Assembly: GCA_021825585.1 (NCBI GenBank) | Contig: JAKAGT010000003.1 | Span: forward strand, 62,001-126,000 | From: Bacteroidota bacterium | GTDB lineage: Bacteria; Bacteroidota; Ignavibacteria; Kryptoniales; JAKASW01 | Direction: 5' to 3' | Length of the DNA: 64,000 nucleotides | In this document: positions 25,714-58,438 of the stretch, piece after piece | Position numbering within the stretch: position 1 is the first letter of the stretch | How the letters are laid out: each line of letters begins with the position of its first letter | Made by a program: the position numbers and the translations under genes | Notes under the pieces: generated by a model | Database searches by the model: none | The model's input: only the letters and a program-made list of their open reading frames with translations | Told to the model about the DNA's origin: nothing

Positions 25714-26538
25714 ATGAAACTTGGCATCTCGATTGAATTGTACAAGATGAGCGAGCTTGAGGAGAAAGTAGCCGCCGCGGCCGCGTGTGGATTCAAGAAC
25801 TGCCAGATGTTTCTTCGAGAAGTCGAGGTGACTGAAAAAAACGTCGGACGGGTTTCGGAAGTCTGCAAGTCCAACGGCTTGAAAATCGGACCGGTCGGTG
25901 CGTATGCCAATCCGCTGCGTCCCGAAGTAATAACGATGGGATGTAATATGGCGAAGGCGAAGCGCATTATAGAGCTCCTCCCCATGTTCGGGAGCAATGA
26001 AATTGCAATGTGGAGCGGCAGCTACGCCGAAGACGTCCTCGCTTACAGTGAAGGCAATTATGAAAAGGCGGCGATCCAAAAGCTCGCCCGCACATCGGAA
26101 GAAATACTAAAGCTTCTCGAGAGTGTGAACGGTACCCTGATATTTGAGACATACTATACACAGGTCCTTCGTGATGTTTCCTCGGTGCAGGCATTGTTGA
26201 ACCTGGTGAAATCCGACCGCTTGAAAGTGATAATAGACCCGCCCAACTATATTTCGCCCGAAGAGTATCCGAAAAGGCAGGAAAAAATGATCGAGCTGGT
26301 CGACCGGCTTCACACGAATATCGGAGCAGTGCACTTCAAGGACTTCAGGCTTCTGGAGGGCGGGAAATGGGACTATCCGGGCCCGGGTGGAGGAATCATG
26401 GACTATACGCTGTTGATGCAGAAACTGAAGGAACACGATTATCGGTCCTGGGGGATAATTGAGCATGTCACCCCAGCCGAGTATGCATCGGCGAAGTCGT
26501 TCGTAGAATCACACATAACAGCAGTGGGGGCATGGTAA
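25714..26538 (+). CDS. Sugar phosphate isomerase/epimerase family protein
   Basis: A 274-residue TIM-barrel protein of the AP-endonuclease-2-like xylose isomerase superfamily. Metal-binding positions are visible: Glu in TLIFETYYTQ (about residue 147), Asp in VIIDPPNY (about 175), His in AVHFKDFRL (about 208) and Glu in WGIIEHV (about 250). Such enzymes isomerise or epimerise free sugars and keto-sugars, often together with Gfo/Idh dehydrogenases as here. Its stop overlaps the start of the next gene by 7 bases, which indicates translational coupling. Confidence 0.9.
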   Translation: MKLGISIELYKMSELEEKVAAAAACGFKNCQMFLREVEVTEKNVGRVSEVCKSNGLKIGPVGAYANPLRPEVITMGCNMAKAKRIIELLPMFGSNEIAMWSGSYAEDVLAYSEGNYEKAAIQKLARTSEEILKLLESVNGTLIFETYYTQVLRDVSSVQALLNLVKSDRLKVIIDPPNYISPEEYPKRQEKMIELVDRLHTNIGAVHFKDFRLLEGGKWDYPGPGGGIMDYTLLMQKLKEHDYRSWGIIEHVTPAEYASAKSFVESHITAVGAW

Positions 26539-26540
26539 TC

Positions 26541-28874
26541 ATGAAGTTGCGCGAGGCGTTGAAGCAGGCTAAATCCATCATAGCACTCTCGCCAGATGTG
26601 AGAGTCACGGATACTGTGTGCAAAGAGCTGTTGAGAGGCAATCCCAATGCCCGGTACCTGTCGTCCAGCCCGGGCGGTGGACAAGAACCCCCGTATATCA
26701 GAGTCGGGGTTTTGAGCTCCGAATCTGCGTTGAAAGAAAACAACGTGAAGCCGGCAGGTAATTCCGAATGGGGATTCATTAGAACCGACGGAAGTTCCAA
26801 CGTCGAGATCTACGCCAGTGCCCCAGGCTTTCTTTATTTTGCCTTCTCACGGTTGACTGAAGACCTGTCCGATGAAAGTACCGACAGGTTCAAGGACGGT
26901 ATGTTCCTGCACAGAACATTCGTGAACCAGCGGCCCCTTTACGATTTGTTCCTGACGCAGCATGCTCGAAGCGTCGAAGGCTTCGATCGCCCTTCTTACT
27001 TCAGGACGCTCGCACGCCTCGGTTTCACCAATGCGGAAGTGAACGGGCTCGCCTTTCCGGTGCCGCTCGGAAAGGGGCCGAAGGACGAAGTATACACGCG
27101 TTTTTATACGTATTGCCCCTCGTTGGACCAGTTCGTCTCGAGCAAGCTGATTGCAGGCACCTATGATGACGAATACCTCCAGGCGAACCTGAATTACCTC
27201 CGGACAAATGCGGATCTCGCGGAGAAATACGGTCTCACTCCCGGGATTGTCTGTTTCGAGCCGCGATCTGTACCCGAATCGCTCATACAAAGGTACCCGA
27301 TGCTACGCGGGGCGAGGGTGGATCACCCAATGCGGAGTTTCGAGCCGCGCTACAATTTATCTATCGGGCACCCCGTCGTAAGAGATCATTACGCAGAGAT
27401 GATGGCCAACCTGATGAAGGCCGTGCCCAATCTGGGATACATGTCCATCTGGGCCAACGACAGCGGCGCAGGATTCGAGTATACTAACTCTCTTTACGTC
27501 GGGAGAAACGGCGGGGGGTATATTGTGCGCGAGTGGCTCGGCGATACGGAGGTGGAAGTCGCAGCAGCCCACAATATCGTTCGCTTCATGAAGCTTCTCC
27601 GTGATGCAGCCAGAAAGTCAAATCCAAAATTCCGCGTGCTGCTCCGGATGGAGCCGTTCTGGGTGGAGCACGAGCACATAATGAGCAGACTTGACGAGGG
27701 ACTCGATCTTGAGGTGTCCTCGCTTCAAGGGAAGGGGTGGGGGCTTTCTTACGAGCACCCGAAATTCAAGGAGCAGGTGCAGATACATACTACGGCACTC
27801 CATAATAAGTTCGACGCCAAAGAGAAGCCCCATATCGATGTCCTTGCGAAAAGAGGAATTAACGCGGATGTGGTCAGCGCTCCGGGAATTATTTGGAACC
27901 ATGAGCCCTTGATAGGGATAACATTCCCGTATCTGGTTCATGAGAAACTGGCAGACATGCAAAGGGCCGGTGTGAAAAACAACGGAGTCCTGGGAGGGGC
28001 GGTGCCGGAGGAATTCGCTCCGTACAACATCAACCAGGAAGTTATCCGCGCCTTCCAGTCCGACCACGAAATGGATCTGGGGGAACTTCTTGCCAGGAAG
28101 GCGGAGGAGTGGGCCGGAAATGCCGCACCAAGCGCGTTGGAAGTCTGGAGGACTGTAGATGATGCTGTCCGGGCGTTCCCAATTCCTATGTGGATCTACT
28201 CGGCATGGGGTGTCTGGTACAGATTGGCTGTCAGGCCGATCGTGCCGAATATTGACGCCGTACCGGAGAAGGAGCGGCGTTATTACGAGAAGTTCCTCCT
28301 GGCGACGCCGCACAACCGATGCAGGGTAGATTTCAGATATGATGTAGGATTCGATCTCCTTGCTCCTGACAGGGCATGGCGCGCATTCGACTTCATGGAT
28401 AAGAACGTCATCCCCCCGATTGACAAGGCAATGGCACTTCTCGTGGAGGCCAGAAACGACGCAAGTGGAGCCGGGCCGGTGGAATTTATCGAGGATCAGT
28501 TGGAGAGGGTGAAAGGGCTGAGATCATGGATGCTTACGCAGCGGAACGTGACTGCCTGGGTGGCAGGAGTTCACACTTATCTGGAAACTTCGGATCCTGT
28601 GAGAAGAACCGAAAGCAGGAAGGTCCTTCACGACATGGTTCTTTCTGAAATCCGGAACGCCGAAGATCTCCTCGGCCTGTGGAATTCATCGAAGAGGAAG
28701 TGGATGATCCTTTCGGCAGTCGGTGAAACTACGTTTATCTATTACAGGAATTTCGGGGAGTTGTTGAAAAGAAAGATCGCTCTTATGAAGGGGCATGAAA
28801 ACGACGAGCCATACGTCGATCCTGACTACCAGTGGAGGCTATCGACGTTTGATTTCTCCGGGAGCGATGTTTGA
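26541..28874 (+). CDS. Large GH20/GH67-like putative glycoside hydrolase, cytoplasmic
   Basis: A 777-residue protein without signal peptide. The N-terminal 110 residues look like the alpha/beta domain that precedes the barrel in GH20, GH67 and GH84 enzymes (YIRVGVLSSESALK, VEIYASAPGFLYFAFSRL). The middle resembles a TIM barrel (GFTNAEVNGLAFPVP, RGARVDHPMRSFEPRYNLS, YMSIWANDSGAGFEYTN, FRVLLRMEPFW). The C-terminal 200 residues are helical. A paralogue with a signal peptide lies at 42304. I cannot assign a named family; WANDSGAGFE is the most conserved acidic stretch. The ATG at 26532 overlaps the previous stop; the one at 26541 is equally plausible. Confidence 0.7.
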   Translation: MKLREALKQAKSIIALSPDVRVTDTVCKELLRGNPNARYLSSSPGGGQEPPYIRVGVLSSESALKENNVKPAGNSEWGFIRTDGSSNVEIYASAPGFLYFAFSRLTEDLSDESTDRFKDGMFLHRTFVNQRPLYDLFLTQHARSVEGFDRPSYFRTLARLGFTNAEVNGLAFPVPLGKGPKDEVYTRFYTYCPSLDQFVSSKLIAGTYDDEYLQANLNYLRTNADLAEKYGLTPGIVCFEPRSVPESLIQRYPMLRGARVDHPMRSFEPRYNLSIGHPVVRDHYAEMMANLMKAVPNLGYMSIWANDSGAGFEYTNSLYVGRNGGGYIVREWLGDTEVEVAAAHNIVRFMKLLRDAARKSNPKFRVLLRMEPFWVEHEHIMSRLDEGLDLEVSSLQGKGWGLSYEHPKFKEQVQIHTTALHNKFDAKEKPHIDVLAKRGINADVVSAPGIIWNHEPLIGITFPYLVHEKLADMQRAGVKNNGVLGGAVPEEFAPYNINQEVIRAFQSDHEMDLGELLARKAEEWAGNAAPSALEVWRTVDDAVRAFPIPMWIYSAWGVWYRLAVRPIVPNIDAVPEKERRYYEKFLLATPHNRCRVDFRYDVGFDLLAPDRAWRAFDFMDKNVIPPIDKAMALLVEARNDASGAGPVEFIEDQLERVKGLRSWMLTQRNVTAWVAGVHTYLETSDPVRRTESRKVLHDMVLSEIRNAEDLLGLWNSSKRKWMILSAVGETTFIYYRNFGELLKRKIALMKGHENDEPYVDPDYQWRLSTFDFSGSDV

Positions 28875-38869: not shown

Positions 38870-39925
38870 ATGACGAACGATCGCCTTGAAAGGGCTTTGG
38901 AGTGTTCCAATACGGACGACGTTCCGTTCATACCCGCGATATATGAACACAAGGCGTGGTTTGTAAATGAGACGCCGTCCAGGGTGGCCAGGGATGCCGA
39001 CTTACTTGCCAAAGCTATGGTTGCCGAATATGAGTCGGTTCAATCCGACGCACTCACGGTCGGTGTCGACGTGTACAACGTGGAGGCCGAGGCGTTAGGG
39101 TGTGAAGTGATATATTATGAAGGCGACGATACTTCGATACCGGCAATCAGCGCGGAGGGGGCCATATACTCTGAGGATGCAGACTTCAAATCGATGCGGC
39201 TCCCTGATCCGGAGAAAGACGGGCGAATGCCTGTCAATATTGAGGCGGCAAGGAGGGTTGTAGAGGCGCTCGGAAGTGAAGTGCCGATTCGGGGGGCGCT
39301 GTCCGGTCCGTTTTCGATGGCAGCGAACCTGGTCGGTCCGGAACGCCTTTTCATGTTGACGGTGACCAACCCACAGTTTGTCAAGGACCTGCTGATTTTC
39401 GCGGCGAACGTTGCAAAGCGGTATGGCGAGGCGTTTGTCAGGACGGGATGCGGCGTTGTCGTGTTTGATTCCCAGGCTTCGCCGGAGTTGTTGTCGCCGA
39501 AGATGTACCGCCAGTTTGTTCTGCCGCCCACACGGTTGCTGATTGATTACTTTCACAATTTGGGTGTGAAGCACGTACCTCTAATCATCGGAGGTAATAC
39601 GACTAAGATTCTGGACGCATACCTGAATAGCGGTGCCAACAACCTGTTATGTGATTTCTCTGCCGACGTACACAGCTTCGTTGTCGAATGTTCGAAATCA
39701 AAGAGGTCTTTTCGCAGGAACATCGACTCGTCGGACTTTCTTAATGTTTCAGCCGAAGATTTACGCAGGAGAACCCTGAAGGCCATCGATGAATCGGAGG
39801 GCTTTCCCGGATATGTCGTGGGAACCAGCGTCGTGCCATATGGAACGCCGCTGGAGAAACTGAAGGCAATTCGGGAAGCCGTGATCGAACACAGGTCAGG
39901 CGGGGCCGGAAGGCAATGTTCCTGA
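38870..39925 (+). CDS. URO-D-family protein lacking the zinc ligands
   Basis: A 351-residue uroporphyrinogen decarboxylase-superfamily protein (TNDRLERALECSNTDDVPFIP at the start, ALSGPFSMAANLVGPERLF, DSQASPELLSPKMYRQFVLP). In methyltransferase members the barrel carries LHxCGNT and a later GC; here the aligned positions read LIIGGNTTKIL (His to Ile, Cys to Gly, about residues 236-246) and GTSVVPYGTP (Cys to Ser, about 320). It therefore cannot bind the catalytic zinc in the canonical way. It sits 300 bases upstream of the corrinoid protein gene. It may have become a substrate-binding or accessory subunit; function uncertain. Confidence 0.75.
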   Translation: MTNDRLERALECSNTDDVPFIPAIYEHKAWFVNETPSRVARDADLLAKAMVAEYESVQSDALTVGVDVYNVEAEALGCEVIYYEGDDTSIPAISAEGAIYSEDADFKSMRLPDPEKDGRMPVNIEAARRVVEALGSEVPIRGALSGPFSMAANLVGPERLFMLTVTNPQFVKDLLIFAANVAKRYGEAFVRTGCGVVVFDSQASPELLSPKMYRQFVLPPTRLLIDYFHNLGVKHVPLIIGGNTTKILDAYLNSGANNLLCDFSADVHSFVVECSKSKRSFRRNIDSSDFLNVSAEDLRRRTLKAIDESEGFPGYVVGTSVVPYGTPLEKLKAIREAVIEHRSGGAGRQCS

Positions 39926-40226: not shown

Positions 40227-40865
40227 ATGGAAGAATTGGAGAAACTAGCACTGCTATTGGAAGAGGGAGACGTGCAAAGTGTCGCCAGCTTGACTCAGCA
40301 ATTGGTAGATTCCGGCATGTCGGCGCAGACAATACTGAACAATGGGCTCATCGTCGGGATGGGCGTAGTAGGTGAGAAAATGCGGACTGGAGAGATGTAT
40401 CTCCCCGAAGTATTGCAGTCGGCAACGGCAATGCACGCATCGTTGAAAATTCTCAAGCCGCTGCTTGCCCAGGGGGGAATACAGCCTTTGGGCAAAATAG
40501 TCATGGGTACAGTTAAGGGAGATGTGCACGACATCGGCAAGAATCTCGTGGGAATTCTCCTTCAAGGTGCGGGGTTCGAGATTCTGGATCTCGGCGTGAA
40601 CGTAGGTCCTGCAAAATTCGTCGACGCAATCAACCAGCACAATCCGTCATTGTTGGCAATTTCAGCTATGTTGACGACAACGATGTTAAACATGAAGACA
40701 ACAATCGAAGCGATCGGGTCAGCCGGTCTCCGCTCGAAGGTGAAGATAATCGTGGGCGGGGCCCCTGTGAGCCAGAAGTTTGCCGATGAAATCGGTGCCG
40801 ACGGATATGCCCAGAATGCAGTGAGAGCCGTCGACAAGGTGAAAGAAATGCTGACGATTGCGTGA
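40227..40865 (+). CDS. mtaC: MtaC-type corrinoid (B12-binding) methyl carrier protein
   Basis: A 212-residue cytoplasmic corrinoid protein. The N-terminal helical cap (about residues 1-85) includes GMGVVGEKMRTGEMYLPEVLQSA. The Rossmann-like B12 domain carries the cobalt-ligand motif DVHDIG (D99-x-H101-x-x-G104), SAMLTTTM (about 150) and the GG motif IIVGGAPVS (about 175). These proteins shuttle a methyl group from a substrate methyltransferase (MtaB) to an acceptor methyltransferase. The next gene, an MtaB homologue, starts 14 bases after its stop, which strongly supports the pairing. The substrate type, methanol or other O-methyl, follows from MtaB, not from this protein. Confidence 0.92.
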   Translation: MEELEKLALLLEEGDVQSVASLTQQLVDSGMSAQTILNNGLIVGMGVVGEKMRTGEMYLPEVLQSATAMHASLKILKPLLAQGGIQPLGKIVMGTVKGDVHDIGKNLVGILLQGAGFEILDLGVNVGPAKFVDAINQHNPSLLAISAMLTTTMLNMKTTIEAIGSAGLRSKVKIIVGGAPVSQKFADEIGADGYAQNAVRAVDKVKEMLTIA

Positions 40866-40879
40866 TAGGACGGGACACG

Positions 40880-42268
40880 ATGAATAACACAACGACGATA
40901 AATACATTTTCTAAGCTGGCGATAAAGAGCTCTTCTGAACTTATGTTTGGCAAGGCGCCGAAGCCGGCAAAGTGTGGCTTCAATCTCAATGTCGGCGGAG
41001 GACAGGTGTTCCCCGAAATTAACTTCACACTCCCGACAATGCTGATCGAAGAAAACACATGGCCGGCCGTAGTCGAGCAGTACCAGGAAATCGGCGAAAT
41101 GCTGGTCCGGTCGGCAAAGAGACTGCACCTTCCCGGATTGATGGTAGAGTTCGAGCTGCTTCCCCCCATGACCGAGAAACCCGAGTGGGGCGCGGAGATC
41201 ACGAACATTCTCCACATGGCATTGAAACGTGCCAATGACGAATACGGACTCCCTTGCGCTTTACGGGCCACTCCGACCGACATACGGGACGGGATCAGGC
41301 CGCCTGTCCTGCGATCGGGGAGGGAGTGGGAAGCACTTGCCGCCTCGATGGACAGGTGCGCTGCAGCCGGCGCGGACATCCTGTCAATCGAATCGGTCGG
41401 CGGGAAGGAAGTGAACGATGAGGCGATGCTCCATGGAGATGTGGCAGGGATGATTTTCGGACTCGGTGTGCTTGCGCCCAGAGACATGGAATTCTTGTGG
41501 GACGAGATAGTTAGAGTGTCCACGAAGCACAACATAGTTCCGGGCGGAGATTCCGCCTGCGGATTTGCAAACACGGCGATGCAGCTATCCTCACAGAGCA
41601 TGCTGCCCGAAGTTTTTGCGGCGGTGGTCAGGGCGGCAAGTACGGTACGGAGCCTCGTCGCGTATGAACGCGGAGCGTACGGGCCGTCGAAGGACTGCGC
41701 TTACGAAGGGCCGGTTATCAAGGCGATAACGGGCGCACCGATCGCAATGGAAGGAAAGTCCGCAAGCTGCGCTCACTTCAGCCCTGTCGGGAATGTTGCC
41801 GCTTCGATGTGCGACTTGTGGAGCAACGAGTCGGTGCAGAATGTAAGGCTTCTCTCCGGTTCGGCTCCCGAAGCGTTTATGGAATTGCTCGCTTACGATT
41901 GCAGGATTTTCAATAAGGCACTCGAAGGCGGGAGTGAGCAAGCGTATCAGAGTCTTCTTGTCGAATCGGACGTGCACCTGAGTCCGCAAGCACTTGTTCT
42001 TTCGCCCGAGTCGACCATGCGGATCGCATCGGCTATCGTAAGAGAGAAGTCGCATTACAGGATGACGGTAGCTGCCGCCCGTGAAGCGGTTTCAATTATT
42101 CGTGACTCCGTGAGGAGTGGAGAACTAAGCCTGAATAAGAAGGAAGCCACATGGCTCGATCGCGTCGACCGCGAGCTTGGGGTCCTTCCGCAGGATGAAG
42201 GGACGCTCATAGATTCGATGAGCGCCAACTACGGCCATCTCTATCTACCCGAGAGTTACGGCTTGTGA
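40880..42268 (+). CDS. mtaB: MtaB-type methanol:corrinoid methyltransferase
   Basis: A 462-residue TIM-barrel zinc enzyme that, in methanogens and acetogens, moves the methyl group of methanol to the cobalt of MtaC. Similarity to MtaB runs through the whole protein: FSKLAIKSSSELMFGKAPKP, EINFTLPTM, PEWGAEITNI, CALRATPTDIR, SIESVGGKE, SLVAYERGAYGPSKDC, ITGAPIAMEGKSASCAH and LWSNESV. The three zinc ligands of the family are present as Glu171 (IESVGGKE), Cys227 (GDSACGFANTAM) and Cys273 (SKDCAYE). The start at 40880 is chosen over GTG 40862, which overlaps the previous gene. The exact methyl donor here could be methanol or another methoxylated compound. Confidence 0.9.
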   Translation: MNNTTTINTFSKLAIKSSSELMFGKAPKPAKCGFNLNVGGGQVFPEINFTLPTMLIEENTWPAVVEQYQEIGEMLVRSAKRLHLPGLMVEFELLPPMTEKPEWGAEITNILHMALKRANDEYGLPCALRATPTDIRDGIRPPVLRSGREWEALAASMDRCAAAGADILSIESVGGKEVNDEAMLHGDVAGMIFGLGVLAPRDMEFLWDEIVRVSTKHNIVPGGDSACGFANTAMQLSSQSMLPEVFAAVVRAASTVRSLVAYERGAYGPSKDCAYEGPVIKAITGAPIAMEGKSASCAHFSPVGNVAASMCDLWSNESVQNVRLLSGSAPEAFMELLAYDCRIFNKALEGGSEQAYQSLLVESDVHLSPQALVLSPESTMRIASAIVREKSHYRMTVAAAREAVSIIRDSVRSGELSLNKKEATWLDRVDRELGVLPQDEGTLIDSMSANYGHLYLPESYGL

Positions 42269-42303
42269 AGACAAGAATTCGGCAAAAAAAAGGAGCTAGC
42301 TTG

Positions 42304-44637
42304 ATGAAGAAAAGTATCCTCGGAAATTGCCTGTTGGTTGCAGCGAGCATTCTTCTCGCCCTTGGAGTGGGAGCGGTTCACGCGTCTACTCTGGGTGAGG
42401 CGATGAAGAATGTGAAGATCATAGCCTATCCTGCAAACGGCAAGGAAGTAGACTATACTGTTTCAACAGCAATCATGCGCGAACTGGCGCCGCAGGCGCG
42501 GGTCGTCAAGTATCAAAACGCCGCATCCCTGGACAAGACGGGCATGTTTGTCGTTTCCGTTGCCGACGAGAACTTCGCGCCCGTTCCCACGAAGGACGAG
42601 CTGAAGACAACGGACCCGGACTGGATGTACTTCAAGATAGGCAAGGACGGTTCGGGCGAGCTTGTAGTCTCGAGCGAGCACCTTCTCTATGCGACGTATT
42701 GCCAGGTGAAACTCTGGAGAAATGAGAACATCGACAAGTTCGTGAACGGCAAAACGATGACCCCGGCATTCACGTGGTTGAGAAACTACAGCGACTTCCT
42801 CGTCGGTACCCGCCGCTACTCGCGCGGCTTCGTGCCCGCTGAATACGTGAAGCAGGCTGCGAGCGAGGGCTTCTCGCACATAACCGTGAACGGACTCGGA
42901 GTGCCTCATCCGTTCGATGAGGGCCCTCCTGGTGACAAGTATTCCGAGTTCTATGACTACACGCCCGATCTCGACCAGTTTGTGGCAAGCAAGCTCCTGA
43001 AGGGATATTACCCCCCGTATTACCTTACAGCAAACCTGAATTTTCTGAAACGCAATGCGAAGCTCGCGAAGGAATACGGCATGGCTCCCGGACTCGTAAT
43101 CTGCTCCCCGAGGACGATGCCAAAAGATTTCTGGAACAAGTATCCGTTTCTTCGCGGGGCGAGGGTCGACCATCCGCGCGAGAGCTACGAACCCAGATAC
43201 ACTCTGACCCTTGAACATCCGGCTGTGCAGGAATCCTACCGCGAACTAGTCGCGAACCTAATGAAGGCTGTGCCCGATCTGAGCTTCATCGAAATCTGGT
43301 CGAACGACAGCGGCTCCGGTTTCGAGTTCGCGAACAGGCTGTATCCCGGCCGAAACGGCGGTCCCTACCTGGTCCGGGAATGGAAAAGCGACGACTATGT
43401 CGCACAGAAAATGGCCGCGAATGTTGTGAACTATTATCATCTGATCCTCAATGAGGCTCGCAAATTCAACCCGAAATTCAGGGTTATAGTCGACCTCGGC
43501 TCGTTTACGCCTCTCGAGTTGAAATACATCATACCGGCGCTCGGTAAGGATCTGGATGTCGGTGATTGGTCGGGACAGTGGCAGGACCAGTTTTCCTTCA
43601 ACGACAAGTGGCAGAAGGAATGGGAAAAGGAAGGTTCACAGACGCAGCTATATCTCAGTGCCGCGAACGACAACTCCATCGGCGTTCCGTTCCCAAAGGT
43701 TGTCTATGATGAACTGGCACAGGCCTATAAAGGCGACTACCGGTACATCCTGAGCGAGACGATCCCGACCTCGCTCGTCCCGTACGACATCAACGGACAG
43801 GTGGTCAGAGCCTTCCAGATGGACCACGACCAGTCCCTGAACCTGATACTAGAGAATGTAGCCGACCGCTGGGTCGGCAAAGATGATGCTGCGACCCTGA
43901 TCGACGCCTGGATGTCCGCCGATTCTGCGGTAAGCGGGTTTCCTGCCGGAGTGCCGAACAGCACGTTTGGATTCCCGTGGTACAGGATGTGGGTGAGACC
44001 GTTCGTCCCCAACATCGGTGCGATACCTCAGAAGGAGCGGGCGTACTACGAAAAGTTTATGCTCACGACATTCAATAATCCTACAAGGGTCGATTTCAAT
44101 AACGACATGTTGTGGAATTTCCTGACCGTGGAGCAGGCAGCCGAGAAAAGGAAGGGCTTCGACGAGCATGTGATGCCGCAGATTGACCGGTCAATCCGAC
44201 TCGTGAAATCCGAATTGGCAAGGATACCCCGAAGTTCGCGTGCCGATACGGTCTTCACAGACCTGCTGGCAAATCTCGAAACGTACCGTTGCTACAGCGT
44301 GACGATGAGGGACATGGTTGCGTGGATTGAAGGCGTTCACGGATACCTCGAAGCGAAGACACCGGAGGCCAAGGCAGAATATCGCGCCAGGGTGAAGTCC
44401 TGCGTCGAAATGGAAATCCAGAATACCAAGGACTTGCTGAAGCTGTGGAACACCAGCCCGGTGGAGATTATGGGAGTGTCGACCGTCGGTGAAAACATGA
44501 ATACGTACGGCGAGAACTTCGGACATCTTCTCGAGAAGCGACTTTCGTTGATGGAGCAGCATGTGAACGATGTCCCGTACATCGATCCGAACTATATGTG
44601 GCGCATGCCGGAACATTATCCACCGATCAACGAATAA
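42304..44637 (+). CDS. Exported paralogue of the large GH20/GH67-like enzyme
   Basis: A 777-residue protein with a signal peptide (MKKSILGNCLLVAASILLAL, cleavage after VHA). It is collinear with the cytoplasmic protein at 26541: both contain YTPDLDQFVASKLL-like, YLTANLNFLKRNAKLA-like, RGARVDHPRESYEPRYTL-like, IWSNDSGSGFE, GRNGG, FRVIVDLGSF-like and the C-terminal KERAYYEKFML-like segments. The same architecture applies: N-terminal alpha/beta domain, barrel, helical C-terminus. AGGAG lies 8 bases before ATG 42304. It is placed directly after mtaB (36-base gap), tying the methyl genes to glycan breakdown. Substrate unknown. Confidence 0.72.
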   Translation: MKKSILGNCLLVAASILLALGVGAVHASTLGEAMKNVKIIAYPANGKEVDYTVSTAIMRELAPQARVVKYQNAASLDKTGMFVVSVADENFAPVPTKDELKTTDPDWMYFKIGKDGSGELVVSSEHLLYATYCQVKLWRNENIDKFVNGKTMTPAFTWLRNYSDFLVGTRRYSRGFVPAEYVKQAASEGFSHITVNGLGVPHPFDEGPPGDKYSEFYDYTPDLDQFVASKLLKGYYPPYYLTANLNFLKRNAKLAKEYGMAPGLVICSPRTMPKDFWNKYPFLRGARVDHPRESYEPRYTLTLEHPAVQESYRELVANLMKAVPDLSFIEIWSNDSGSGFEFANRLYPGRNGGPYLVREWKSDDYVAQKMAANVVNYYHLILNEARKFNPKFRVIVDLGSFTPLELKYIIPALGKDLDVGDWSGQWQDQFSFNDKWQKEWEKEGSQTQLYLSAANDNSIGVPFPKVVYDELAQAYKGDYRYILSETIPTSLVPYDINGQVVRAFQMDHDQSLNLILENVADRWVGKDDAATLIDAWMSADSAVSGFPAGVPNSTFGFPWYRMWVRPFVPNIGAIPQKERAYYEKFMLTTFNNPTRVDFNNDMLWNFLTVEQAAEKRKGFDEHVMPQIDRSIRLVKSELARIPRSSRADTVFTDLLANLETYRCYSVTMRDMVAWIEGVHGYLEAKTPEAKAEYRARVKSCVEMEIQNTKDLLKLWNTSPVEIMGVSTVGENMNTYGENFGHLLEKRLSLMEQHVNDVPYIDPNYMWRMPEHYPPINE

Positions 44638-44681
44638 GCAGTACAACACATTTTTTCTATATAAATTTCAGAGGAGGAGGG

Positions 44682-45701
44682 ATGGAGTCACCAATTTTGC
44701 CGACTACGTTTGTCGGAAGTTATTCGCTGCCGCATTGGGTCGACGCAGTACGTGATCTCGGTCAGGCAGGCAAGCTGACCGAAGCGCAGCTGGAGGAAGC
44801 GCATGACAATGCGGTGAAATCGTGCATCAAAGACCAGGAAGCAGCCGGACTCGACGTAATTACCGACGGTGAATTGCGGCGTGAGACAATGGTGTACTTC
44901 TTTTCAAAACGGATCCATGGTTTCGATAACACCGGAAGGATGAAAGCGATCGGTAACCTTGATCCAAACATTCAGATGCCTGATCCGGTTGTAGTCGATA
45001 AGGTCAAGCGCGCCGGAAGCATAGGAATAGCAGAGCACTTTTCATTCCTCAAGAAATATGCGGCATCTCATCCAAAGGTTACGATCACCGGTCCTCAAAT
45101 GCTGGCAAAGCGCGCGACAAACGAATACTATAAAGAAGAGAAACAGCTGGTATTTGATCTGGCCGATGTGTTAAACGCCGAGCTTAAGGAAACTATCGAC
45201 GCCGGGTGTGATTTTGTCCAGGTGGACGAGCCTGTCTGGGTCGGTTATCCGGAGGATATGCCGTGGCTTGTCGAAGCGTTCAACAGGATGGTCGATGGAG
45301 TTAAGGCTAAGATTGTCCTCCACGTTTGCTACGGCAATTACAAATTGAAGAAGCTATTCACGGGGACATACGCCGATCTCTTCCCGGAGATACTGAAGGT
45401 GAACGCTTCTCAGCTAAGTCTGGAGTTTGCCGTTACCGACATGGAGCCGCTGGAGCTCTTCAAGAAATACAAGACCGACAAGGAAGTTGCTGTCGGGGTG
45501 ATAGATGTGAAGGATGAATCGGTGGAGACGCCGGACGTAGTAGCATCCAGGATTCGCCGCGCGTTGAAAGTGATACCCAAGGAGAAGATGTGGATCAGTA
45601 CCGATTGCGGCATGAAGTTCATGCCCCGGGACCGCGCCTTCGGTAAACTGAAGGCAATGGTGGATGGGACGAGGATTGTCCGCAAAGAGCTGGGCGAATA
45701 A
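44682..45701 (+). CDS. MetE catalytic-domain-like methyltransferase (core MetE type)
   Basis: A 339-residue protein equivalent to the C-terminal catalytic domain of cobalamin-independent methionine synthase, without the N-terminal domain. Features: LPTTFVGSYSLPHWVDAVRD, the segment AGLDVITDGELRRE, PKVTITGPQML, DFVQVDEPVW and zinc ligands in LHVCYGN (His/Cys, about residue 212) and STDCGMKF (Cys, about 306). Short MetE-like proteins are known that take methyl groups from corrinoid carriers to make methionine or a related thioether. The very strong GAGGAGGAGGG just before ATG 44682 fixes the start. It is a plausible acceptor end for the mtaBC system. Confidence 0.86.
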   Translation: MESPILPTTFVGSYSLPHWVDAVRDLGQAGKLTEAQLEEAHDNAVKSCIKDQEAAGLDVITDGELRRETMVYFFSKRIHGFDNTGRMKAIGNLDPNIQMPDPVVVDKVKRAGSIGIAEHFSFLKKYAASHPKVTITGPQMLAKRATNEYYKEEKQLVFDLADVLNAELKETIDAGCDFVQVDEPVWVGYPEDMPWLVEAFNRMVDGVKAKIVLHVCYGNYKLKKLFTGTYADLFPEILKVNASQLSLEFAVTDMEPLELFKKYKTDKEVAVGVIDVKDESVETPDVVASRIRRALKVIPKEKMWISTDCGMKFMPRDRAFGKLKAMVDGTRIVRKELGE

Positions 45702-45729
45702 CGATCTGAAATGAACTGAGAACTATAGA

Positions 45730-47313
45730 ATGAATGAAATGTTTTTGAAGACCGGGAATGAGTCGCTCGATGCGCTCTTTCCACGGATTAAAGAATTCTT
45801 TGCGATGAACGCCGTCGACTACAACGTAATGGGGAAGAGAACCCACGGTTATCGTGATCCGGACGCACCCAGCATCTGGTTACGCGGTGTCGCGGACTCT
45901 CTGCGTGCCTACAAGTACTGGGAAAAGGATCTCAAGAGCATAATCGAGATATTCGCCGACACGCAGACGGCTGCAGGATGGTTGTACGACTATTTCACCA
46001 TGACTCCCGAAAAGGTGCCGTGCGAGAAAGAGAACTGGGCAAAATTTGTCCGCGTTCCGAATGAAGCCGACGTCGAGTTCAGGTTCGTGAAGGCGGTCTA
46101 CCAGGTTTGGCAGGCGACTGGGGACGATACCTGGCTGAGGAAAATGATCCCTGTCATGGAGCGGGCGCTGCAGTATATAGTCACCGATGCGTGGCGCTGG
46201 GACAAGAAGACCGGCCTCGTGAAGCGTTCATACACAATAGACACATGGGATTTCGATTACACCGCGGACCGCCACGAGTGGCTAAACTTCCAGCTGGATG
46301 AGAACACCTTCTGGGGAATAATGCACGGCGATAACTCGGGGTATTACGAAGCCTTTCTTCTGATGAGTTCGATGTACAAACAAGTGAAGAACGCTAAGGG
46401 CGCGAATTACTGGCGCGCTATTGCCTCGAGACTCAGGGCGAAGGCCAACAAGGTCTGTTTCAACGGGCGATTCTATACGCACCATGTGCCGCTGGTCCCT
46501 GTGAAGATTGACGGAGTCGACGAGAGCGAGCAGCTGAGCCTCAGCAACCCGATGGACATCAACCGTGGCCTGCCCACTCATGAGATGGCTGCGTCGATAA
46601 TAAGAGAATATCAGAGGCGTGCCGCGAAGGGTACCTCGTTTGCGGAGTGGTTCAGCATCGATCCGCCGTTCCCCGCGGGGGTCTTCGGCGACGACAAAAT
46701 CATAGAAGGCGCTTACAGCAATGGCGGTATAATGCCGCTTGTCGGAGGAGAACTCGCCAGGGCAGCCCTCGAGCATGGATTCGAGAAGTATGGCGTCGAT
46801 AATCTCCTCCGATATGCAGAACTGACGTCGGGCGGTGAATCGTTCCTCTGGTATTTTCCGGACGGAACGCACGCGACACTGGAAACGAGCACTAGCCCGG
46901 ACGCATCTCCCGGAGACACATGGGGATCCTCTGCGATGCTCTACGCGCTGGTCGAAGGCCTGGCAGGAATCGTCGATGCCGGGAAGCTGTACAAGACCGT
47001 CAGCCTGAGTCCCCGCTGGGAAGCTGCGGGGACGGACGAGGCGGCGATCCGCTGTACGTACGAAGCCTCCGGGAGTTCGTTTGAATATTCCTACGCCCAC
47101 GACAGGGCACAGAAGAAAATCGGGCTGGAAATCCCCGGTAAGTCGAATGTGGCTCTCCATCTTCTTCTCCCATCGGGCACAAGGGCCGAGTCAGTCAAGG
47201 TGAACCGGAAAAGCGTACGATTTACACGCAGCAGGGTAGAGGGAAGTCCGTATGTGGATGCCGCGCTAAGCATCGGCAAGAAGGCCGTCATCGAAGTTGG
47301 ATACGACAGTTGA
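45730..47313 (+). CDS. Cytoplasmic (alpha/alpha)6-type glycosidase, family not identified
   Basis: A 527-residue protein with no signal peptide. It has the helix-pair pattern of (alpha/alpha)6 glycosidases (IWLRGVADSLRAYKYWEKD, VEFRFVKAVYQVWQATGDD, HGDNSGYYEAFLLMSSMYK, EGAYSNGGIMPLVGGELARA) and a small beta-rich C-terminal domain (TYEASGSSFEYSYAHD). Acidic residues in WDFDYTADRHEW and DNSGYYEAF are candidates for catalysis. The overall shape recalls GH78, GH116 and glycogen-debranching-type enzymes, but I cannot choose among them. It follows the MetE-like gene by 28 bases. Confidence 0.68.
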   Translation: MNEMFLKTGNESLDALFPRIKEFFAMNAVDYNVMGKRTHGYRDPDAPSIWLRGVADSLRAYKYWEKDLKSIIEIFADTQTAAGWLYDYFTMTPEKVPCEKENWAKFVRVPNEADVEFRFVKAVYQVWQATGDDTWLRKMIPVMERALQYIVTDAWRWDKKTGLVKRSYTIDTWDFDYTADRHEWLNFQLDENTFWGIMHGDNSGYYEAFLLMSSMYKQVKNAKGANYWRAIASRLRAKANKVCFNGRFYTHHVPLVPVKIDGVDESEQLSLSNPMDINRGLPTHEMAASIIREYQRRAAKGTSFAEWFSIDPPFPAGVFGDDKIIEGAYSNGGIMPLVGGELARAALEHGFEKYGVDNLLRYAELTSGGESFLWYFPDGTHATLETSTSPDASPGDTWGSSAMLYALVEGLAGIVDAGKLYKTVSLSPRWEAAGTDEAAIRCTYEASGSSFEYSYAHDRAQKKIGLEIPGKSNVALHLLLPSGTRAESVKVNRKSVRFTRSRVEGSPYVDAALSIGKKAVIEVGYDS

Positions 47314-47344
47314 TCTATAAAAAGCTGGCTGGGGAATTAGTTTC

Positions 47345-49615
47345 ATGAAGCGACGGGATTTTGTATTTAAGTCGGCGCTGAGCGCCGTAGCTTTGACGCA
47401 GCTAAGGCTCTCTGCATTGCCGCAAATCTCAGCAAGGCCGGAGGCTGAAGGAACGCAACCGTCCGATGAGGCCGCGGATTCGTTGATTGAATCATGGACG
47501 AAGGAGGACCCTTCCAATCAGGGGATGAATACGGATTACATCTCCTTCCTTCCCGGCGTCGAATATTTCCTGATGGGAAACGGAGAGATTCAGGGAGTGG
47601 TCCAGTACTGCAAGGACAATAAAGTAGCTCCGGGAAGCTCATTCTTCGGCTTTACGATAATGAGTGCGGAGCATTTCACGCAAAAGTGGACAACCTTCCT
47701 CTACAGTGGCGGACGCGGCTTCGGAAACACGCTCGCGGCGATGGGCGTCGATGGCAATTTCTACGGGGTGAGCGAAAAGAATCTCAAGTCCATCGGGTGG
47801 AAATACATCGATGGTGTTCCCGTAGTAAGCGTTGTCTGGACAGAGAAGAACTGCGAGATGGAAGAACAGTTGTTCGTGCCAAGCGAAGGGCCGGTCATAT
47901 TTCGGCGGCTGCATGTCAGGAATCTCGACACCACGAGTCATAAGATAGGTGCCGGACTCACACTCTATCCCAACATCGCCCTGTTCGACGATGTATACAC
48001 CGACCCGAAGAAGAGAACGGCCAACGCAGAAGGATTCACCACACTGCGGATGTTCTGTTATGAGAAAGACATTCAGACCCTGGGCCGTTACACGGTGAGG
48101 GCCGACCAGGGAACGATTGCACCCGGCGCTGAGACGGAGGCGATGTTCGCGTACTATCTCGAAGGCGGCGGGTCGCTCCTGAAAAAGAAAGATATCAAAA
48201 CCATTTGGTCAGAGACGGTCGATTACTGGAAAAAGAGGAATTCGGTCTCCACGGGGAATGAGAGTCTCGACCGGGTGTGGAACCTATCGAAGACCGGGTT
48301 GAAGGCGCATGTCGCGAAGAACGGCAAGAGGGATTCCGGAATCTGGGAATATGGAATGGAATGGGTGAGGGACGACGTCATGGTTATGACGGCATTTCTC
48401 CAGAGCGGCTTCTTTCACGAGGCCAGGGTCCTCCTCGACAGGATGTTTACGAAGTTCGTAACCAATGACGGAAGGACAGTCGAATCGAGCCAGGTATTCC
48501 CGTTCCAATTCACAGAAATAGACCAGAACGGTGAACTTCTGTATGGTGCATGGGCATACATCTGTTGGACGGGCGATTATGCCACGGTGCAGAAATATTG
48601 GGAGAAGATCGTCCCCCTTGCCGAACTCCCGCTCCGTCCGTTCTTCTGGCAGAAGGATTCAGGCCTGCTCAGCAACACGAGAGAGTATTGGGAAAGGTCA
48701 GATTCATTCGGCGTGAAGCCAGGATATGAGCTGGCGTATCAATTCTGGGTCATATTCGGATTGGAAAAGGGGGCAGAGGTCGCCGCAAAATTGGGCCACC
48801 ACCGTTATGCGGCCAGGTGGGGCGCCGCATCGCGCAAGATAAAGGATGCCTTCCTCAACAATCCTAAGTTCAGATTGATCGAGGACGGACATTTCATCAA
48901 GCGGAGGACGCTGGATGGCGAGTGGCAGAAGACCATGATACCGCCTGACAGGAACAACATGCCAGCTGGCACGCCTATCGCGGTCGAGAAGACGCCGCTG
49001 ACTGAACCCGATGCGAGTGAAGTATTGCCTATTATGTACGACATGGTTGATCCGAAAAGCGAACTCGCATTGAAGACGCTGGATTGGGTCGAGCCGTTGT
49101 GGAATGAAAGATGGAAGATAGGAGGCTACGAGCGGTACAACAGTTCGAGCGAGCCGGAACCGCCCGGCCCGTGGCCGTTCGCTTCAATGTTCATTGCGGA
49201 GGCTTACTGGGAGGCGGAGAACTTTCAAAAGGGAATGCGCGTCATAGACTGGCTTGCCGGTATCAACGGCGGCCTCTCCGGCGGGTGGTTCGAGTATTAC
49301 CCGGAGGGGCACCCGACGGTCGGGATAATCGGCTGGAACTGGGCAGAGAACGTGCGCTTCATGGTCGACCATGTGATTGGAGTAAGACCGCAGCTGGAGA
49401 AGCTGGTTATCAGACCGCGGCTCGGCGCAGGAATCGATGCGGTTAAATCGCGTGTGAACGTCAGGGGTATGGGTCTGGATTTGATGCTTACCAAGTCGGG
49501 CAGCAGCGATTCAGCTTCGGTAAACAAGAAGAGTATCGAACTTCATGACGGGCAACTTGTGCTTCCCTACCTGCGAGGTGGTAATTTATCTATCGATATA
49601 AACATAAAAAAATGA
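47345..49615 (+). CDS. Tat-exported (alpha/alpha)6-type glycosidase
   Basis: A 756-residue protein with a twin-arginine-like signal (KRRDFVFKSALSAVALTQL). Residues about 50-300 form a beta-rich N-terminal domain (YFLMGNGEIQGVVQY, WTEKNCEMEEQLFVPSEG). Residues 310-690 are a toroid of helix pairs with IWEYGMEWVRDDVMVMTAFL, an arrangement seen in GH15, GH63 and GH94-like enzymes, and SGGWFEYYPEGHPTVGIIG near the end. The acidic pair in EWVRDD and the later GGWFEYYPEG are possible catalytic sites. Family not assigned. It lies between the cytoplasmic glycosidase and a URO-D methyltransferase, 31 and 39 bases away. Confidence 0.72.
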   Translation: MKRRDFVFKSALSAVALTQLRLSALPQISARPEAEGTQPSDEAADSLIESWTKEDPSNQGMNTDYISFLPGVEYFLMGNGEIQGVVQYCKDNKVAPGSSFFGFTIMSAEHFTQKWTTFLYSGGRGFGNTLAAMGVDGNFYGVSEKNLKSIGWKYIDGVPVVSVVWTEKNCEMEEQLFVPSEGPVIFRRLHVRNLDTTSHKIGAGLTLYPNIALFDDVYTDPKKRTANAEGFTTLRMFCYEKDIQTLGRYTVRADQGTIAPGAETEAMFAYYLEGGGSLLKKKDIKTIWSETVDYWKKRNSVSTGNESLDRVWNLSKTGLKAHVAKNGKRDSGIWEYGMEWVRDDVMVMTAFLQSGFFHEARVLLDRMFTKFVTNDGRTVESSQVFPFQFTEIDQNGELLYGAWAYICWTGDYATVQKYWEKIVPLAELPLRPFFWQKDSGLLSNTREYWERSDSFGVKPGYELAYQFWVIFGLEKGAEVAAKLGHHRYAARWGAASRKIKDAFLNNPKFRLIEDGHFIKRRTLDGEWQKTMIPPDRNNMPAGTPIAVEKTPLTEPDASEVLPIMYDMVDPKSELALKTLDWVEPLWNERWKIGGYERYNSSSEPEPPGPWPFASMFIAEAYWEAENFQKGMRVIDWLAGINGGLSGGWFEYYPEGHPTVGIIGWNWAENVRFMVDHVIGVRPQLEKLVIRPRLGAGIDAVKSRVNVRGMGLDLMLTKSGSSDSASVNKKSIELHDGQLVLPYLRGGNLSIDINIKK

Positions 49616-49654
49616 CAGATTAATGGCTATTCGAACCAATAAGGGGGGAATCCT

Positions 49655-50680
49655 ATGCGGTCGATAGATCGTGTTCGCAATGTTATTGCCGGGAGGCCGG
49701 TCGATCACCTGCCAGCACAGCCCATGCTTATGATGTTTGCCTCGAAGCATGCAGGCATAGAGTTTATCGATTACACGAAGGATGGTCGGCTCATGGCGGA
49801 AGCGCAGCTGAAGATCGTTGAAGACTACGATCTGGATTGCCTTCTGACCTGCTCGGATCCCGCCCGCGAAGTGATAGACATTGCGGGCGATGGATCGATT
49901 GACTGGTTCTCCGACCAGGGCCCGGCCATCAACGAGGAACGTGCCGCGTTGACTGATAAGTCCCGGCTGAAGACGTTCACGGTTCCGGATCCGATGGGCG
50001 GCGGAAGGATGCACGACCGCATTAAGAGTATCGAGATAATGTACCGGCATGTCCTTGGGGAAATCTCGATTGTAGGCTGGATCGAAGGCCCGCTGGCATT
50101 GGCGGCGGAGCTGCGCGGCATAAACAACATAATGCTGGATTTCATGCAGGACCCGCCTTTCGTCGACGACCTTCTTGACTTTTGCGCGGAGGTCGCTATT
50201 CGTTATGCTACACCGCAAATAGAGGCGGGCGCCGATACGATCGGGATGAGCGACGCGGCTGCAAGCGTCATCGGCCCGAAATTGTACGCAAGGTTCCTAC
50301 AGCCCCGACAGAAGCGGGTGCTTGCCGCCATCAAGGAAAAGCATCCGGCTGCTATTACACGTCTTCATATGTGCGGCAATACAGACGTGCTGATTCCAAA
50401 GATGAAAGAACTTCCGGTCGATATATTTGAGCTCGACTTTCCTGCCGACCTCGTCAAAGCCCGCGCCAATCTCGGACCCGATAAAATCATAAGTGGAAAT
50501 GTCTCGACCGTATACGATCTTCTGGAAGGCACTCCTGAGAGCGTGTACGAGGCGACGCGGAGGTGTCACGAGGTTAGCGGGAAGATGCATATTGTAAATT
50601 CAGGCTGCGAAGTCTCGCCGCTGACACCCCCGGAGAACCTGAAGGCGCTAATGCGTTATGCCAAGGAGCACCAACCATAA
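49655..50680 (+). CDS. URO-D-family methyltransferase with intact zinc motif (MtaA-like)
   Basis: A 341-residue URO-D-superfamily protein resembling MtaA, which passes the methyl group from a corrinoid carrier to a thiol. It has the early motif RSIDRVRNVIAGRPVDHLPA, EGPLALAAELRGINN, SDAAASVIGPKLYARFLQP, the zinc ligands in RLHMCGNTDVL (about residues 235-245) and SGCEVSPLTPPENL (about 316). Unlike the homologue at 38870, all three zinc ligands are kept, so this is the best candidate in the operon for the second methyltransferase partner of the mtaBC pair. GGGGG lies 6 bases before the start. Confidence 0.85.
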   Translation: MRSIDRVRNVIAGRPVDHLPAQPMLMMFASKHAGIEFIDYTKDGRLMAEAQLKIVEDYDLDCLLTCSDPAREVIDIAGDGSIDWFSDQGPAINEERAALTDKSRLKTFTVPDPMGGGRMHDRIKSIEIMYRHVLGEISIVGWIEGPLALAAELRGINNIMLDFMQDPPFVDDLLDFCAEVAIRYATPQIEAGADTIGMSDAAASVIGPKLYARFLQPRQKRVLAAIKEKHPAAITRLHMCGNTDVLIPKMKELPVDIFELDFPADLVKARANLGPDKIISGNVSTVYDLLEGTPESVYEATRRCHEVSGKMHIVNSGCEVSPLTPPENLKALMRYAKEHQP

Positions 50681-50747
50681 CACCTGCATATATTCGTGCG
50701 ATTAAAATAAAAATGACAACGCAAAACAAAGCCAGGAAGGGATGGTA

Positions 50748-52670
50748 ATGAAGTCCGTCAACTTTCTCGACTACTCTGTCGTAGCCGCGTATTTTCTTTT
50801 CATGCTCGGAATCGGTATCTACTACAGCCGGGTCAACAAGGGCGCAAAAGAGTTTTTTGCAGGTGGAAGCATGATCCCGTGGTGGATTTCGGGAATGACA
50901 TTGTACATCGGCAACTTCAGCGCCTGGACCTTCACCGGCGCGGCGGGATTCGCATACACGACCGGTCTGTTTGCCATATTGTACTTCGCGACATGGTCCA
51001 TATCGTATTTCGTCGGATCGCAATTGACTGCCGCCAAGTGGAGAAGAACCCGTTCTATCTCTCCTGTGGAGTATACATACACCCGCTTCAACATAACGAC
51101 TCAGCAATTTCTCGGCTGGGTAATGTCTGCCAACTACATATTGGCCGCCGGAGTACAGCTCGCGGCCACATGCGAGATATTCGCACCGGTTATGAGGCTC
51201 GACATTACGACTGTAATAGTGGTCATGGGGACCGTCATACTCCTGTACACATTCATGGGAGGTCTCTGGGCGGTGTCGATAACGGACGTGGTCCAGGGGG
51301 TCATATTGTTGAGCATCACTTTCATCGTGATGCCGCTCAGTCTTCATCTTGTCGGAGGGATTGGCGGACTTCTTAAGGCTCTTCCCGCGTTCAGCCTGCA
51401 GCATACTTACAACGGCCTGCACTACGATCCGAACTGGCTGGTGGGTGTCTTCATAATTATGTCGCTGGGTACGGCGGCCGGGCAGGCACAGAGGTTCTAC
51501 AGCGTGAAGAACGAGAGAGATGCAAAACGCGTCGGAAGAATGGCGGGCTTTCTCTTTCTGACTGTCCCGTTTGTTTTCGGCATTCCGCCTCTGGTCGCAA
51601 GAGTCATTTGGCCGAATCTCGCGCAGGTACCTTTCTTCAAGCCGTATGTCGGACATAATCCCCAGGACCTGGTGTTCGTCGGGCTTTGCCTCAAACTTCT
51701 TCCGAACGGCGTCATAGGCGTCTTCCTCGCCGCCATGCTGGCAGCCACTATGAGCGCGATGAGCACGGTGTACAACCTCGTGTCGTCTATACTCGCTCGC
51801 GACATATACCAGGGACTCATCGACAAGACGGCCAACGACCAGAAGCTCCTGAAGGTGGGCAGGATTTCATCGGCTTTGATCGGCATAGTCGTAATCATCG
51901 AGGCGGTGATTTTCGTGAAGAGTAAACTCGGCATATTCAATATGATGCAGGTCTTCTTCACGATGCTGAACGTCCCGGTTGTATTGCCGATTGCGTGCGG
52001 CTTACTCATTAGGAAAGCCTCGAAGTGGGCAGGCATCGCGGTTATCGTCTGGGGGCTCATCGTCGGGTTGACCACACGTTATGTCGTCGGATGGACGATG
52101 GGAGAACAGATTTATGCCCAGTTCTTCTCGACGTTGATTCTGTTTGCGTCATCTTACGGGCTCGGGCTTCTTTATAAGAAGAGCAGGAAGCAAACAGCCG
52201 CGCTATCGGCGCTTGTTACGGTAGCGTTCTTTGTCTTTTTCTTCCTAACGTCGATCTCCTCGGAAAACGGTATACTCCTGTCCCTGACTGGAATTTCTGC
52301 CATAGCGCTCGGCGTGAGTCTATATATATTCTCGAAGTTGTTCGCTTCTGAAAGCCCGGAGCAGAGAAGAGCTATCAACGAGTTTTTCAAGAAACTGGAT
52401 ACTCCGGTCGACGTGATGAAAGAAGTGTTCGGAGCCGGCAGGAAGCAGGTATCGACATTCCCCGTCGTCGGCGGAATCACCATGGTTATGGGAGTACTGA
52501 TAAGCCTGATATTCTTCTCCGGCGTGTCTCCGGAACAGCAGGCAATAGTCGGTATCCTGTCGGGCATCCTGGTCGTCTTTGGCAGTCTGATGTGGTTCTT
52601 TGGAAAGCGCTCGCAGGAGAAAGCGGAACAGCTTGCACTTAGCCTTCAGAAGTCTCAGGAGACCAAGTAG
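50748..52670 (+). CDS. Sodium:solute symporter (SSS family)
   Basis: A 640-residue inner-membrane transporter with 13 or more hydrophobic helices. Family motifs at the start are VVAAYFLFMLGIGIYYSR, the segment FFAGGSMIPWWISGMTLYIG and NFSAWTFTGAAGFAYTTG, the usual sodium-site region; further on, MLAATMSAMSTVYNLVSS and ARDIYQGLI. The C-terminus adds a linker (FFKKLDTPVDVMKEV) and two last helices. ATG 50748 is favoured because GGAAGG ends 7 bases upstream. It is probably the importer for the monosaccharide or uronate released by the neighbouring enzymes. Confidence 0.92.
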   Translation: MKSVNFLDYSVVAAYFLFMLGIGIYYSRVNKGAKEFFAGGSMIPWWISGMTLYIGNFSAWTFTGAAGFAYTTGLFAILYFATWSISYFVGSQLTAAKWRRTRSISPVEYTYTRFNITTQQFLGWVMSANYILAAGVQLAATCEIFAPVMRLDITTVIVVMGTVILLYTFMGGLWAVSITDVVQGVILLSITFIVMPLSLHLVGGIGGLLKALPAFSLQHTYNGLHYDPNWLVGVFIIMSLGTAAGQAQRFYSVKNERDAKRVGRMAGFLFLTVPFVFGIPPLVARVIWPNLAQVPFFKPYVGHNPQDLVFVGLCLKLLPNGVIGVFLAAMLAATMSAMSTVYNLVSSILARDIYQGLIDKTANDQKLLKVGRISSALIGIVVIIEAVIFVKSKLGIFNMMQVFFTMLNVPVVLPIACGLLIRKASKWAGIAVIVWGLIVGLTTRYVVGWTMGEQIYAQFFSTLILFASSYGLGLLYKKSRKQTAALSALVTVAFFVFFFLTSISSENGILLSLTGISAIALGVSLYIFSKLFASESPEQRRAINEFFKKLDTPVDVMKEVFGAGRKQVSTFPVVGGITMVMGVLISLIFFSGVSPEQQAIVGILSGILVVFGSLMWFFGKRSQEKAEQLALSLQKSQETK

Positions 52671-54700: not shown

Positions 54701-54716
54701 CCCCCGGTCACAATTG

Positions 54717-54745
54717 TTGACAGACCTGCCGTATCGCTATTCGAA
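54717..54745 (+). promoter_or_regulatory. Possible internal promoter
   Basis: TTGACA (54717-54722) followed after a 15-base spacer by TATTCG. It lies in an 82-base gap before the DHOD-like gene, the longest gap in this part of the operon apart from 58999-59102. The -10 element is poor. Confidence 0.28.
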
Positions 54746-54782
54746 AGAACAAAGCATCTTCTAATAATCAGGAAAAGGTCGA

Positions 54783-56741: not shown

Positions 56742-56789
56742 TACAAGTAACAAATCACTAGAGAAGTAAGAAAAAAACAGGAGTAAAAG

Positions 56790-58421: not shown

Positions 58422-58438
58422 ATTCTGAAGGTTTGAAA

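Follow-up and report, generated by a model that had tools for sequence, protein, structure and literature searches.

We analysed a window of 64,000 nucleotides from a Bacteroidota bacterium, positions 62001-126000 of a contig in a 4.97-Mb genome, in which genes of a methanol-type corrinoid methyltransferase system lie among genes for glycan breakdown (positions below count from the window start). One gene string on the plus strand encodes MtaC, MtaB, glycosidase-like proteins, a core methionine synthase (core-MetE), an MtaA-like URO-D protein and an SGLT-type symporter. An MT1, a corrinoid protein and an MT2-type gene, the three components of such a system, thus stand together in one cluster. 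All genes that an earlier note on this DNA had named are present at the locus.

The MtaC-like corrinoid protein (40227..40865, 212 residues) combines the B12-binding_2 and B12-binding domains (PF02607 and PF02310) with the cobalamin-histidine motif DVHDIG, and the pattern DxHxxG was found in 72/72 matches to the MtaC profile. Its top NCBIfam models are MtgC_2 and pyl_corrinoid, with every score under the cut-off. Exactly 14 bp lie between the mtaC stop and the ATG at 40880, the start used here for mtaB (40880..42268) in place of the GTG at 40862 with which the mechanical open reading frame begins. The encoded zinc methyltransferase matches PF12176 at E=5e-157 (524 bits against a 25-bit cut-off) and the solved MtaB of M. 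barkeri (2I2X) at E=2.4e-90. Numbered from the ATG at 40880, its zinc ligands Glu171, Cys227 and Cys273 correspond to Glu164/Cys220/Cys269 of 2I2X and are unchanged across 83 bacterial MtaB relatives. Both the 14-base spacing and the three ligands had been given in the earlier note and hold with this start codon. Measured against the curated methanol equivalog NF040651, the protein stays under the cut-off with 429.7 of 720 bits.

The next gene (42304..44637) encodes an exported, alpha-uronidase-like glycosidase with a hydrophobic, signal-like N-terminus, here called GHx. A search for a Pfam family or a PDB sequence match to GHx returned nothing, and by sequence it does not belong to GH67, GH115 or GH138. 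Its predicted model, compared by Foldseek, resembles a GH138 galacturonidase (E=3e-12), a GH67 glucuronidase (E=8e-12) and a GH115 glucuronidase (E=5e-9), where the top matches have TM-scores of 0.4-0.5 and the model has an uneven confidence with a mean pLDDT of 71. Since GH20 and GH84 also appear among the fold matches, uronidase specificity is unproven. One of the GH67/GH115-type matches was solved with 4-O-methylglucuronate. GHx represents a conserved 780-residue family without a Pfam model, with members in genomes G065, G078, G124, G149, G013, G004, G173 and others, and it is a candidate for a new glycoside hydrolase family.

Core-MetE, comprising the MetE catalytic domain only (PF01717, 339 residues), follows at 44682..45701; its likely start is the ATG at 44682, preceded by the ribosome-binding site GGAGGAGGG, and not the mechanical start at 44598. 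The zinc residues H/C/E/C are conserved in the motif HVC...E...C. The nearest curated model is PRK04326 (334 of 406 bits) and the closest solved protein 3RPD, a MesD protein (E=4e-48). Two further glycosidase-like proteins are encoded downstream. The product of 45730..47313 is a putative (alpha/alpha)-barrel protein with no evident signal peptide and a weak GH127-like match (E=0.004), whose family also occurs near GHx in G004, G099 and G126. That of 47345..49615 resembles glucoamylases and trehalases and would be exported through its Tat-like KRRDF start; its match to the oligosaccharide amylase model TIGR01577 (E=2e-12) is far under the cut-off. No solved homologue was found for either product by sequence search, and no Pfam cut-off was passed by 42304-44637, 45730-47313 or 47345-49615. 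The glycosidase-like genes reported between the methyltransferase genes are there; the predicted fold supports this assignment for GHx, and weak sequence matches suggest it for the other two. The string continues with the MtaA-like URO-D methyltransferase (49655..50680, PF01208), which has an intact HMC...C (HxC...C) zinc motif. Its best solved match is the methylcobalamin:coenzyme M methyltransferase 4AY7 (E=3e-24) and its score reaches 155 of 235 bits for the curated MtaA models (NF040654/TIGR01463). With core-MetE and this protein in the same string, and a sugar-type symporter of the SSF family just behind them (50742..52670, PF00474; SGLT/SiaT branch, closest solved proteins SGLT2, SiaT and SGLT1), the remaining gene assignments were confirmed.

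Besides, two features had been overlooked in the earlier note. Directly upstream of mtaC lies a gene for a zinc-less URO-D superfamily protein (38870..39925, plus strand, PF01208), in which IIGGNT replaces HxCG and the late cysteine is missing, so that the zinc ligands of MtaA are replaced. The same holds in ten loci of this upstream URO-D, and the remainder of the protein is highly conserved. Its best curated model is TIGR01463 (MtaA/CmuA), with a score under the cut-off, and its predicted model (pLDDT 86) matches 4AY8/4AY7 best in fold with a TM-score of 0.82. The subfamily comprises the window protein and those of loci L026, L027, L028, L030, L032, L033, L035, L037 and L081; it is marked by the motifs YEHKAWF, DVYNVEAEA and FRRN and lies near MtaBC or GHx at each locus seen. 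The second feature is another GHx group at 23346-28874, consisting of a plus-strand URO-D methyltransferase-like gene with an HTCG...GDQC motif (23346..24494), a Gfo/Idh gene, a sugar epimerase-like TIM barrel and a second GHx copy (GHx2, 26532..28874, plus strand), which shares 37% identity with the first. The genome has six URO-D genes; three of them fall within one 27-kb part of the window and, judged by its score, a fourth is presumably HemE.

For the comparison with other bacteria, a scan with one genome per species gave 209 MtaB relatives, 80 of which were fetched. They belong to Ignavibacteriota, Bacteroidota, Acidobacteriota, Planctomycetota, Verrucomicrobiota, Fidelibacterota (Neomarinimicrobiota), Calditrichota, Armatimonadota, Sumerlaeota and Methylomirabilota, and the window locus has its closest named relatives among metagenome-assembled genomes of Candidatus Kryptoniota, Ignavibacteria and unclassified Bacteroidota. 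Neighbouring genes were mapped by profile search of stop-to-stop frames around the 52 MtaB loci flanked by 3 kb or more on either side. Within 4 kb of MtaB we found MtaC in 34 loci (31 on the same strand), URO-D in 30, RACo in 10 and GHx in 10. GHx follows mtaB immediately in the genus of the window and in most of its closest relatives, and the mtaC-mtaB-GHx string is kept in the GHx-linked loci, whose MtaB proteins form a supported clade (100/94). The gene order sought in relatives thus recurs. In the class sample GHx occurred in 9/10 genomes with MtaB versus 11/187 without it (Fisher p=2e-9), and counted by genus in 7/7 versus 5/99 (p=3e-8); these p-values are optimistic because the genomes share ancestry. 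In the majority of GHx-type loci the gene immediately before mtaC is that of the zinc-less URO-D. In three cases in which GHx lies away from MtaB it is still found near URO-D (G149, G124 and a second locus of G002), and in G124, which lacks MtaB, URO-D, Gfo/Idh and GHx lie together.

Other glycan genes accompany MtaB as well. GH2 adjoins it in Ignavibacteriota and Fidelibacterota, where GH10, GH13 or sugar-binding proteins are found too, and in Acidobacteriota. The ignavibacterial loci additionally carry ROK, PfkB and galactokinase-type genes and a heparinase II/III-type lyase, which passes the Pfam cut-off of Hepar_II_III_N barely and matches 4FNV at E=0.008. The GHx of these loci seems to lack a signal peptide and would therefore act in the cytosol beside MtaB. 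Relatives hence do carry glycan genes, whereas the earlier note would have counted their absence beside MtaB in all relatives as a refutation. The glycan link is real at the gene level: MtaBC lies inside a locus for glycan breakdown and is inherited together with it. In several phyla MtaC, MtaB, DUF1638 and RACo form a string, sometimes extended by a PF02574 homocysteine methyltransferase. In L025 (G078:C40:222-845) a GH2 gene has beside it a second copy of MtaB that is decaying and interrupted by in-frame stops. Some MtaB genes of Acidobacteriota and Planctomycetota showed neither MtaC nor RACo within the fetched flanks. Among them, the MtaB zinc ligands are intact in L062 of Aquisphaera insulae JC669 and at many loci of Bryobacterales; L062 belongs to a named isolate, which might serve as a test organism.

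The window system shares with MtaBC/MtaA of M. barkeri (2I2X) the full-length MtaB family, the Glu/Cys/Cys zinc ligands, the adjacent DxHxxG corrinoid protein and an MtaA-like URO-D. It differs in that MtaB, MtaC and MtaA all score under their equivalog cut-offs, the residues next to the zinc ligands are changed, core-MetE and glycosidases belong to the string, no RamA/RACo was found in the genome and the host is a respiring bacterium. The attribution of MtaBC to methanogens and acetogens in the earlier note is not the whole picture, since bacterial mtaB outside acetogens has already been reported: it is spread across peat phyla, is expressed in Acidobacteriota and was read as methanol use (PMC10805028). 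Acidobacteriota MtaB proteins, in part from comparable metagenome-assembled genomes of fens and bogs, belong to the same family as the window MtaB, but the available portions of the paper treat mtaB as methanol methylotrophy and describe no glycan cluster or acceptor (PMC10805028). The core methionine synthases MesA-D resemble core-MetE in their single MetE catalytic domain and zinc residues, and a methylcobamide-type donor is expected for MesA-C; their predicted partners are MtrA, CoFeSP or MesX, and the portions of these two papers that were available do not mention a linkage to MtaBC or glycosidases (PMC7857596, PMC7005905). URO-D O-demethylases and CdmB likewise remove methyl groups from ethers or halides in a corrinoid-dependent manner and are in part zinc-less, but they belong to another MT1 family, act on aromatic ethers or halomethanes and occur in acetogens, where an activating enzyme is present and tetrahydrofolate accepts the methyl group (PMC13222342). 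Type 1 mlp clusters also hold several MtaA-like proteins and a corrinoid protein; they are defined by Mlp2 and Mlp3 with a Ram/RACE activator, were proposed for methyl-sulfur or methyl-selenium compounds and, as described, do not include MtaB (PMC10418091). A cluster activator of this kind is missing here, the window genome being without RACo. Sugar demethylation found described is oxidative: a P450 converts 6-O-methyl-D-galactose to the free sugar within glycan use, as we consider here, but the reaction is oxygen-dependent, releases formaldehyde and involves no corrinoid (PMC10033563). In the literature searched, no report was found of methyl sugars being demethylated anaerobically or by a corrinoid enzyme. 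The enzymes are of known kinds; as far as this literature shows, their arrangement, the zinc-less URO-D subfamily and the shared inheritance with a family of glycosidases have not been described.

Plant and algal polysaccharides are rich in methyl ethers, such as the 4-O-methylglucuronic acid of xylan. Our tentative reading, which we regard as almost evenly poised between right and wrong, is that the locus encodes a three-component corrinoid methyltransferase module which serves glycan breakdown and takes its methyl group from a methylated sugar. The genes themselves, their zinc and B12 motifs, their linkage and their shared inheritance with GHx are shown by the data; that the donor is a methyl sugar, which way the methyl group moves and what accepts it are inferred, and the pathway might run as follows. 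Extracellular GHx and its partner glycosidases would release sugars from a uronic-acid-bearing polysaccharide, and the SGLT-type symporter would take them up. MtaB, perhaps aided by the zinc-less URO-D, would then take the O-methyl group from a methylated sugar, which is most likely a uronic acid or hexose in methyl-ether form, and transfer it to Co(I) of MtaC. Methyl-MtaC could pass the group to homocysteine via core-MetE, yielding methionine, or to a thiol via the MtaA-like URO-D. Core methionine synthases accept methyl groups from methylcobamides (PMC7857596, PMC7005905). In G126, for which a search gave no MtaB, GHx has a core-MetE of 70% identity to that of the window as its direct neighbour, and a PF02574 homocysteine methyltransferase, unrelated to core-MetE, adjoins MtaBC in G015, Verrucomicrobiota, Acidobacteriota and Armatimonadota. 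Homocysteine gains weight as the acceptor, since the homocysteine methyltransferases that accompany MtaBC in different phyla belong to two families unrelated to each other, and we consider it plausible.

The choice of donor lies mainly between a methyl sugar and methanol. The uronidase-like GHx, the lyase and kinases of the relatives, the absence of a pectinesterase from the window genome and the residue changes beside the zinc ligands argue for a methyl sugar, a choice in which we place somewhat less than balanced confidence. Alternatively, MtaB could have kept its substrate as a methanol:corrinoid methyltransferase that salvages methanol from methyl-esterified uronans for methionine and one-carbon pools. 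The full PF12176 match with all zinc ligands speaks for this, as do the acidobacterial mtaB genes, published as methanol genes and transcribed in peat (PMC10805028), and the pectinesterases in 6/10 MtaB genomes of the class. However, these pectinesterases are far away from MtaB or not on its contig, and a search of the window genome found none; the methanol source proposed in the earlier note is thus weakened, whereas its view of a system dedicated to glycan catabolism stands as regards the embedding of MtaBC and a plausible homocysteine acceptor. The score of 429.7 bits, well short of 720, and the uniform changes T85F, Q89P, D219A, Q222F, N273G and D297S, found next to the zinc ligands in at least 95% of the 83 relatives, also speak against unchanged methanol use, although these differences come from a comparison with one archaeal MtaB, the methanol-specific enzyme of M. 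barkeri, and may reflect distance instead of substrate. We therefore consider methanol salvage an unlikely, if serious, explanation. It is improbable that the zinc-less URO-D is itself a sugar-specific MT1, like CdmB, MtvB and OdmB, and that MtaB provides a second, methanol-type entry sharing MtaC. Its conserved place directly upstream of mtaC, the linkage of GHx to URO-D where MtaB is not nearby (G149, G124 and the G002 GHx locus) and the existence of zinc-free URO-D MT1 enzymes (PMC13222342) would fit such a role, but it is nearest to MtaA/CmuA and not to the O-demethylases, and its top matches include no solved MT1 relative.

Against a methyl-sugar module several further points have to be weighed. 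We know of no MtaB with a sugar substrate, the GHx of G099 has no one-carbon gene nearby, and many acidobacterial MtaB copies lie without GHx, MtaC or an obvious glycan gene in their vicinity. The last two could mean that the one-carbon genes are passengers which share no substrate with the glycan cluster and act on, for example, a methylated amine or sulfur compound, as for the mlp clusters; the corrinoid protein indeed scores best to glycine-betaine MtgC models, though under the cut-off. The strong MtaB-GHx co-inheritance over seven genera and the repeated association of GHx with different one-carbon partners make mere passengers very improbable. The weak point of the methyl-sugar module is corrinoid reactivation. 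Heme-copper oxidase genes, COX1 included, are present in 10/10 MtaB-bearing genomes of the class sample, so that their hosts look like respiring bacteria and neither like methanogens nor typical acetogens; how MtaC stays in the Co(I) state in such cells is unexplained. The PF14574 profile of the RACo/RamA activator found no match in the window genome or in two MtaB-bearing congeners (G065, G078), and a search of the window genome with RACo of a neighbouring phylum was empty. RACo occurs in 5/10 MtaB genomes of the class and beside MtaB in one (G015). The earlier note had held the lack of an activator together with that of B12 uptake or synthesis to count against its proposal; the first applies as regards RACo, but the window genome encodes one half of a MetH, which includes the domains for B12 binding and for reactivation. 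Cobalamin chemistry and reactivation dependent on S-adenosylmethionine (SAM) are therefore available in principle. We consider it possible, though rather doubtful, that oxygen-respiring bacteria demethylate sugars by corrinoid enzymes, using GHx loci with exchangeable modules of MtaBC, zinc and zinc-less URO-D proteins and core-MetE that deliver the methyl group straight to methionine, with MetH-like reactivation perhaps standing in where RACo is absent, as in the window genome. If true, such a pathway would account for the removal of sugar methyl ethers by microbes without oxygenases, would link the methyl groups of sugars directly with the synthesis of methionine and would give a different substrate to bacterial MtaB, which now stands for methanol methylotrophy in peat carbon models.

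Stand-alone proteins of 200-250 residues with a weak match to the MetH reactivation domain were seen about 1-2 kb after the MtaB start in L087, L088, L077, L078, L084, L086 and L099. They lie beside MtaB in Calditrichota, Planctomycetota and others, sometimes where RACo is not nearby; in the window genome such a protein was looked for and is absent. From their sequence, SAM-dependent corrinoid reactivation for MtaC is a possible function, and they may replace RACo.

Downstream of the symporter, positions 52704-60803 encode an FAH hydrolase, an NSAR/OSBS-type enolase-superfamily protein (TIGR01928 over the cut-off), a DHOdh-like protein, a cyclase, a GxGYxYP protein and an M20 peptidase, and the M20 and enolase-type genes recur at the GHx loci of relatives. 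Moreover, a strong GH47-type (class I alpha-mannosidase) gene, here in a bacterium, is located at 15592-17112 (PF01532, E=8e-118).

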